A stretch of DNA of 32,061 bases from Acetobacteraceae bacterium (GTDB lineage Bacteria; Pseudomonadota; Alphaproteobacteria; Acetobacterales; Acetobacteraceae). The notes beneath the pieces were generated by a model. The model saw only the letters and a list, made by a program, of their open reading frames with translations. It did not search any database and was not told the DNA's origin. Positions 13,170 to 14,999 of the stretch are shown here, piece by piece (the first letter of the stretch is position 1; each line of letters starts with the position of its first letter). The translations under genes and the position numbers were made by a program. The stretch covers positions 1 to 32,061 of the forward strand of contig JAIXVH010000416.1 of the NCBI GenBank assembly GCA_027483125.1. Direction: 5' to 3'.

Positions 13170-13247
13170 TGCGAAAGGCATGGAAGAAACGCCTTGCGCC
13201 ACCCTGCGCGCGGGTCTTGCATGTCGCCATCAGCGAAGGAGAGCGCG

Positions 13248-14843
13248 ATGAAACCCGCCCTTTTGGCCGGAGCCCTGGCCTTGATGGCCAGCACGGCCAT
13301 GGCCCAGCAACCGCGCGTCCTGCGCATCGCCATGACGGCCGCAGATGTGCCCACAACCTCCGGCATGCCCAATAACGGCTTCGAAGGCATGCGCTTCCTG
13401 GGCTACCCGGTCTTCGAGGCACTGACCGCCTGGGACCTCTCGGACCCCGCGCGCCCCGCCGGCCTGCGCCCGGGCCTGGCCGAACGCTGGGAACAGGATG
13501 CGGCCGATCCGCGCCTTTGGCGCTTCCATCTGCGGCGCGGCGTGCAGTTCCATGACGGTACGGCCTTCAACGCCGATGCGGTGATCTGGAACCTCGACCG
13601 CTTCTTCCGCAATGACAGCCCGCAATTCGACGCCACCGGCAGCGCCATCACCCGCGGCCGCATCCCGGTGCTGGAGAGCTACCGCAAGATCGACGACTTC
13701 ACGGTCGAGATCCGCACCACGCGCCCGGTCTCCTACTGGCCCTATCTGCAGGTCTATATCCTGATCACCTCGCCGCAATCCTTCGAGGCTGCTGGCCGCG
13801 ACTGGGCACGCGTGGCAGCCCTGCCGGCGGCCGGCACCGGCCCCTTCCGCATCAGCCGCTTCGTGCCGCGCCAGCAGGCCGAGCTCTCGCGCAACGACAA
13901 TTACTGGGACAGCGCACGCCGCGCGCGGGTGGACCGCGTGCTGCTGCTGCCCATGCCCGAAGCCACGACACGGCTTGCAGCCCTGCGCTCCGGCCAGGTG
14001 GATTGGGTGGAGGTGCCGCCGCCGGACGCCATCCCCTCGCTGCGGCAGGCGGGCTTCCAGATCAGCACCGGCTCCTACCCGCATGTCTGGCCCTGGGTCT
14101 TCGCCGCCGGCCGGCCCGGCAGCCCCGTCGCCGATGTGCGCGTCCGGCAGGGGTTGAACTACTGCATCGACCGCCCCGCCATGGTGCAACTGCTCAACGG
14201 CACGGCCGAACCGAGCGTGGGCTTCTTCAAGCCCAATGACCCGAATTTCGGCAGCCCGCAGAACCAGTACCTCCTGGACGCGGCGCGCGGCCGGGCGCTG
14301 CTGGCCGAAGCCGGCTTCAACGCGCAGCGCCCGCTGACGCTGCGCGTGGGCATCTCCACCTCCGGCTCCGGCCAGATGCTGCCGCTGCCGATGAACGAGT
14401 TCCTGCAACAGCAGCTGCAACAGAATTGCGGCGTGCGCGTCGCCTTCGAAGTGGTGGAATGGAACACCCTGCTCGCCGGCCTGCGCGCCGAACCGGGCCA
14501 GCCCGCCTGGCTCGGCGCGGATGCGCTGAACATCAGCCTGGTCTCCTCGGATGCGGCGCAGATGGCGCGCTGGTTCATCAGCGCCAACTTCACGCCGCGC
14601 GGCTCCAATGCCGGGCATTGGCGGGACGAGGCCTTCGATACCGCCTTCACCGCGCTGGAGACCGAACGCGACCCCGCGCGCATCGCAGGCCTGCTGCGCA
14701 CCGCGCATGAACGCCTGGTGGACAACCCGCCCTGGCTCTGGATCGTGCATGACCTGAACCCGCGCGCCATGTCCCGCCGGGTGCAGGGTTTCACCCCGCC
14801 GCAATCCTGGTTCATCGACCTGGCGACGGTGACGGTGCAGTAG
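13248..14843 (+). CDS. ABC transporter substrate-binding protein, peptide/nickel family (SBP_bac_5)
   Basis: Start refined to MKPALLAGALALMASTAMAQ; WRFHLRRGVQFHDGTAFNADAVIWNLDR. Confidence 0.94.
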   Translation: MKPALLAGALALMASTAMAQQPRVLRIAMTAADVPTTSGMPNNGFEGMRFLGYPVFEALTAWDLSDPARPAGLRPGLAERWEQDAADPRLWRFHLRRGVQFHDGTAFNADAVIWNLDRFFRNDSPQFDATGSAITRGRIPVLESYRKIDDFTVEIRTTRPVSYWPYLQVYILITSPQSFEAAGRDWARVAALPAAGTGPFRISRFVPRQQAELSRNDNYWDSARRARVDRVLLLPMPEATTRLAALRSGQVDWVEVPPPDAIPSLRQAGFQISTGSYPHVWPWVFAAGRPGSPVADVRVRQGLNYCIDRPAMVQLLNGTAEPSVGFFKPNDPNFGSPQNQYLLDAARGRALLAEAGFNAQRPLTLRVGISTSGSGQMLPLPMNEFLQQQLQQNCGVRVAFEVVEWNTLLAGLRAEPGQPAWLGADALNISLVSSDAAQMARWFISANFTPRGSNAGHWRDEAFDTAFTALETERDPARIAGLLRTAHERLVDNPPWLWIVHDLNPRAMSRRVQGFTPPQSWFIDLATVTVQ

Positions 14844-14847
14844 CCGT

Positions 14848-14903
14848 TCTAGAGCACGTTCCGACCAGCTTGAATCAAGCTGGTCGGAAGACCGTGCTCT
14901 AGA
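14848..14903. repeat. Bulged hairpin 1 (tctagagcacg + 15-bp stem)
   Basis: 11-bp and 15-bp perfectly complementary arms separated by a 3-nt bulge (gac) on the right. Confidence 0.9.
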
Positions 14904-14913
14904 AGCATAGCTG

Positions 14914-14978
14914 CTAGAGCAGCTGATGTCCGATCGGCTGAACCGCGTAGCGGTTCAGCCGATCGGACGCTGCTCTAG
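14914..14978. repeat. Bulged hairpin 2 (ctagagcagc + 19-bp stem, loop gta)
   Basis: 10-bp and 19-bp perfectly complementary arms separated by a 4-nt bulge (tgat) on the left. Confidence 0.9.
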
Positions 14979-14999
14979 GCCGGCCATTGATGGCCGGCC
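14978..14999. terminator. Hairpin 3 (ggccggcca/tggccggcc, loop ttga)
   Basis: 9-bp perfect stem; only a short pyrimidine stretch follows. Confidence 0.5.

Follow-up and report, generated by a model that had tools for sequence, protein, structure and literature searches.

The window, by which we mean the entire 32,061-nt stretch of DNA analysed here, contains two consecutive bulged hairpins between a gene for an extracellular solute-binding protein and a gene of the NIPSNAP family. The hairpins had been noticed in a sequence-only reading of the same DNA, which described their stems, bulges and coordinates correctly to the base. The features of the locus are as follows; ranks refer to a matrix of IS630 terminal inverted repeats (TIRs) scored over the 64,074 positions of the window on both strands.

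13194-14843, + strand: gene for an extracellular solute-binding protein, family 5 (Pfam PF00496, E 2.8e-68), upstream; stop codon at 14841-14843, true start possibly internal
14848-14903, no strand: hairpin 1, with an 11-bp basal and a 15-bp apical stem that covary across 29 elements
14848-14858/14893-14903: hairpin 1 basal stem, 11 bp
14850-14851, no strand: left flanking TA, within CTAG, read as target duplication; TA flanks the family's elements and is single in empty sites
14852-14975, no strand: putative composite mobile element GAGC...GCTC, 124 nt, two hairpins; absent at the orthologous site of a congener (G003:C502), dispersed in G003 and 12 other genera
14852-14875, + strand: outer arm of hairpin 1, GAGC-ACGT-TCCGACCAGCTTGAAT; matrix rank 1 of 64,074, 18/24 bases shared with an actual IS630 TIR
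14859-14873/14875-14889: hairpin 1 apical stem, 15 bp
14890-14892, + strand: hairpin 1 bulge GAC, 3 nt, on the right (inner) arm; inner arm the longer in 26/29 elements, reversed in 0
14900-14916, no strand: spacer between the hairpins (GCTC to GAGC), 17 nt; 17-18 nt in all 29 elements and in 22 G023 pairs
14914-14978, no strand: hairpin 2, with a 10-bp basal and a 19-bp apical stem
14914-14923/14969-14978: hairpin 2 basal stem, 10 bp
14924-14927, + strand: hairpin 2 bulge TGAT, 4 nt, on the left (inner) arm; inner arm the longer in 29/29 elements
14928-14946/14950-14968: hairpin 2 apical stem, 19 bp
14952-14975, - strand: outer arm of hairpin 2, GAGC-AGCG-TCCGATCGGCTGAACC; matrix rank 20 of 64,074, weaker than hairpin 1
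14976-14977, no strand: right flanking TA, read as target duplication on the same grounds as the left
14978-14999, + strand: perfect palindrome GGCCGGCC-ATTGAT-GGCCGGCC, present also in the element-free relative shortly after the stop codon
15045-15380, + strand: NIPSNAP family gene, downstream (Pfam PF07978, E 2.5e-26)

The two-hairpin stretch has a minimum free energy of -107.1 kcal/mol against a mean of -50.6 for shuffled sequences (z = -13.9, 0/200 shuffles), and it gives no Rfam match above the gathering score. The octamer at the hairpin ends, CTAGAGCA, occurs four times in the window where 0.15 occurrences are expected, each time at the hairpin pair. The pair forms one unit, TA-(GAGC...GCTC, 124 nt)-TA, which is devoid of coding capacity, shorter than 300 bp and bounded by terminal inverted repeats, as is expected of a MITE.

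A BLAST search with the 146-nt stretch recovers from G003 at least five copies in which both hairpins and both ends are present, together with partial ones; the order of the hairpins and the spacer are constant among them and the flanks are unrelated. G007 has one copy. The source genome of the window holds only degraded fragments besides the window copy. The exact paired end pattern, for which the sequence-only reading had proposed a genome-wide search, is found there at the window site alone; further copies of the element lie in related genomes. A looser AGAGCA...TGCTCT pattern gave four further listed sites in this genome, none of them palindromic. Across the taxonomic family the element is present in 26 of 300 genomes from 13 genera, and in the 12 other genera it is mostly full length, with 71-80% identity and a near-constant length. 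The 29 elements that we aligned measure 125-130 nt including both TAs. No match was obtained in the plasmid collection. The dispersed copies, the empty sites described below and the presence in 13 genera bear out the earlier suggestion of a MITE-like family whose ends are conserved and whose cores vary, here with covariation, and they contradict confinement to a single site, the outcome it had named as fatal to that suggestion. The mobile unit appears to be the pair and not the single hairpin.

Some copies are arranged in a more complex way. At L219, at L225, in the left flank of L267 and in the right flank of L260 we observed three-hairpin arrays and elements abutting through a shared TA, an arrangement that insertion of one element into another's terminal TA would produce. 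L038 in another congener (G008:C6:109057-109107) is a palindrome of another kind whose ends, TAGAGCATTTTTATCTGCTC...GCTGATGCTCTA, are related, possibly another IS630-type MITE.

Comparison with relatives that lack the element indicates how it arrived. The orthologous gene pair at G003:C502 has no element between flanks that are 97% and 96% identical to the window, and the net difference of 126 bp (124 + 2) fits the length of the element plus a duplicated TA. This empty site reads CTTGG where the window has TTCTA, so the TA is not preserved and the clean evidence for a TA target comes from other copies. Four of the five bases at G003:C502 5018-5022 differ from the window within a region otherwise ~97% identical; these differences could be substitutions or an excision scar. 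The copy at G003:C461 reads CCCGG-C-TA(..)TA-GAAATG and its empty counterpart at G000:C268 reads CCCGG-T-TA-GAAATG, with a single TA within TTAG. A decayed copy at G003:C120, which has lost hairpin 1, corresponds to a single CTAG at the empty site in G007:C1. These are the two clean comparisons (n=2); a third, G003:C300 against G000:C197, is consistent with insertion followed by decay of one TA. G007:C74, tried as an empty site, proved uninformative: in the orthologous gene pair there, ~450 nt of other sequence, probably coding, stands in the element's place between the flanks (about 1317-1769).

Flanks counted in G023 point the same way. TA precedes the outer arm at 31/38 outer ends there, and at outer ends the base before it is C, G or T, leaving TA as the constant part. 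Because the flanking 4-mers are identical in only 6/12 units while TA flanks are common, the duplication is taken to be the 2-bp TA. In several copies the flanking TA belongs to a stop codon and, since the first base of the element is G, insertion there restores a TAG stop; at L059 this holds for either side of the element, where two convergent open frames end. Judged by these alignments, the two-hairpin element is an insertion at TA, usually inside CTAG, with a 2-bp duplication. IS630-family elements transpose into TA with duplication of TA (PMC2170065), and a CTAG preference was recorded for IS630 by Tenzen and Ohtsubo 1991, as cited in PMC2170065.

We next compared the ends with those of IS630-family elements (PF13358, ISRm2011-2-like) gathered from the taxonomic family and from plasmids, whose ends were located as TA-flanked inverted repeats without assuming any end sequence such as GAGC. 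The elements found in this way are TA-flanked units of ~1,050 bp, and in 18/22 both ends read AGC at positions 2-4, mostly as GAGC. The ends of the two-hairpin element fit the similarly TA-flanked terminal repeats of this family, GAGC-N4-TCCGA(T/C)C...TGAAT, and the core of each arm continues this consensus rather than being unrelated, as the sequence-only reading had supposed. The inner arms rank at 2,206 and 285 against the matrix as they stand and at 1 and 4 without the bulge. Across the family, outer arms share up to 20/24 bases with real IS630 ends, and most of these matches have a permutation p < 0.05 with GAGC held fixed; the outer arm of hairpin 2 in the window matches at 15/24 (p = 0.06). 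Between the two outer ends the identity is ~63% (first 20 nt, ungapped), whereas the arms within a hairpin are ~95% identical, a pattern that simple TIR-driven selection does not predict.

A transposase gene was sought in the same genomes. The incomplete assembly of the source genome has no match to PF13358 or to an IS630 transposase gene, and the fragmented assembly of G003 contains IS630 transposase gene fragments only. No autonomous IS630 element with these exact ends was found in G003 or G023, nor any element with identical ends, and IS630 genes are present in some other carrier genomes of the family, e.g. G042, G106, G132 and G161. Fragmented assemblies tend to lose repeated insertion sequences. 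A MITE usually has an autonomous partner in its own genome but need not have one, as partners can be lost.

The placement of the bulges is regular. When each of the 58 hairpins of the 29 elements was folded, the inner arm was the longer in 55/58, the arms were equal in 3 and the outer arm was never the longer, a count that overstates the number of events because related copies are not independent. The same rule holds in G023 (genus g16), which has a sequence-distinct two-hairpin family of 22 pairs with a gap of 17-18 nt. Many copies occur in this genome, e.g. L184-L225, with CAGCACTATCCGCTCACGC... paired with GAGCAATATCCGTTC... or GAGCACGAAATGCGCCC.... Its outer arms show N4 spacing in 37/38 cases and its inner arms N6 in 36/44 (Fisher p 2.7e-14). 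The spacing of IS630 ends is retained by the outer arms only, and this would account for movement of the two hairpins as a pair. We infer that the inner insertions shift the inner ends out of register and that the outer pair alone would be usable.

The stems themselves also appear to be kept. The 32 pairs scored in the family alignment cover hairpin 1 and the basal stem of hairpin 2 (the hairpin 2 apical stem was left out, since MAFFT displaces it by the length of the bulge), and 11 of them change on both sides. Such changes fill 93 cells against 31 in shuffles (0/500), and at most 10 when the partners are slid. The signal is strong only with all 13 genera; the seven copies of the genus alone give no significant excess (60/500 shuffles). 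Covariation across genera suggests that hairpin formation itself is kept. The fold may matter, be it that of the DNA during transposition or that of the RNA where genes end; alternatively, copying from arm to arm during replication may keep the palindromes perfect.

The same covariation would be expected if the hairpins were retained for a function, as bidirectional terminators or protectors of RNA 3' ends between genes, with mobility mainly a matter of history. Several copies lie exactly at stop codons, sometimes those of two convergent open frames, as this proposal would have it. It is compatible with a MITE origin and we regard it as a minority possibility that deserves some weight, because templated repair between arms could also make stems covary, the presence of the element at one site varies between ~97%-identical relatives, so that no single site needs it, and the solute-binding-protein gene already has a palindrome of its own at 14978-14999. 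That palindrome is possibly the native terminator of the gene. The element lies between it and the stop codon. Since the element-free relative has the palindrome too, the gene did not originally end in the element. From this arrangement, the element would add 3' hairpins to the solute-binding-protein transcript without having supplied its original end.

Two other mobility systems have to be considered. A REPIN-like element would consist of two inverted, bulged REP hairpins moved as single-stranded DNA by a RAYT (TnpA-REP), an IS200/IS605-like tyrosine transposase. The opposed paired hairpins, the conserved bulge in each and the location mostly at gene ends all recall this layout, bulges in REPs matter for TnpA-REP (PMC8266576), and stem covariation fits a system that reads hairpins. 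However, Y1_Tnp (PF01797) is absent from 8 genomes, including the source genome and the copy-rich G003 and G023, with positive controls in E. coli and Caulobacter. The constant GTAG/CGTC foot is also absent, the TA flanks are symmetrical and the ends match TIRs of IS630, a DDE family. The cognate RAYT proposed in the sequence-only reading therefore has no counterpart in any of the 8 genomes, and we consider this origin improbable. Still less credible is an IS5-family MITE of the MITEPsy1 type with a 4-bp CTAG duplication. CTAG stands at both ends of the element, and MITEPsy1 duplicates 4 nt when it inserts at its targets, CTAG or YTAA (PMC3189936), but the half-failure of 4-mer identity noted above is at odds with a duplicated CTAG. 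Moreover, the right TA may be followed by G, A or C, in contrast to the fixed first base of the element, and the MITEPsy1 ends, GGAAGG, differ from those of the element, which match IS630.

The best explanation, to which we assign a probability of roughly 0.8, is that the hairpin pair is a single non-autonomous MITE of the IS630/Tc1-mariner type, with the outer arms as its ends and a transposase presumed to act in trans. Dispersal, empty sites, TA flanks, similarity of the ends, the bulge rule and covariation all argue for it at the level of sequence. The ends would be the left arm of hairpin 1 and the right arm of hairpin 2, each TA-GAGC-N4-TCCGAyC, and the whole unit would have inserted into CTAG a few bases past the solute-binding-protein stop codon, duplicating the TA. 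An IS630-family transposase borrowed from a full-size element would recognise the outer arms, the insertions of 3-4 nt would hold the inner arms out of register, and single hairpins would accordingly not move alone, the pair travelling together. The window copy has probably lost its mobility, given that its own incomplete genome yielded no IS630 gene.

More tentatively, and at somewhat less than even odds, these elements may represent a widespread two-hairpin class of IS630 type whose bulge marks polarity: insertions of 3-4 nt would silence the inner ends and restrict transposition to the pair, and each hairpin would be kept because its fold is needed, either for transposition itself or in RNA where genes end. 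The AGAGCA...TGCTCT palindromes scattered across genomes of this alphaproteobacterial family are thereby assigned to a mobility family, with a rule that can be tested. If that rule on the bulge is true, a DDE transposon turns two palindromes with two potential ends each into one unit with two usable ends, and DDE-type MITEs become linked to a REPIN-like architecture that is usually attributed to another class of enzyme. In the open-licence papers searched we found no description of a two-hairpin design with inner bulges, and accounts may have been published elsewhere.

Among known systems, REPINs, REP doublets and the CGTC-tagged REPs of Alphaproteobacteria (PMC8266576, PMC3733652) share with the element opposed hairpins, a conserved bulge in some REPs, location at gene ends and the combination of two inverted hairpins in one unit. 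The element differs in having a TA duplication and IS630 ends, no RAYT that could be found and no constant GTAG or CGTC foot. MITEPsy1 of Pseudomonas syringae is likewise a short MITE (100 nt) that targets CTAG, but has IS5-related ends and a 4-bp duplication (PMC3189936). The ISRm2011-2-like insertion sequences of the IS630 family in Alphaproteobacteria have the same TA flanks, GAGC-N4-T ends and the CTAG preference recorded for IS630 (Tenzen and Ohtsubo 1991, cited in PMC2170065); unlike the element they are autonomous, ~1,050 bp long and encode a DDE transposase, and they do not have the two-hairpin design. The RUP element of Streptococcus pneumoniae, compared by description, belongs to another host, and PMC2229807 does not describe it with two hairpins, inner-arm bulges and covarying stems. 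Like the element, RUP is an intergenic repeat (~107 bp) with a TA target, and its ends resemble those of the IS630-family element thought to mobilise it, IS630-Spn1 (PMC2229807).
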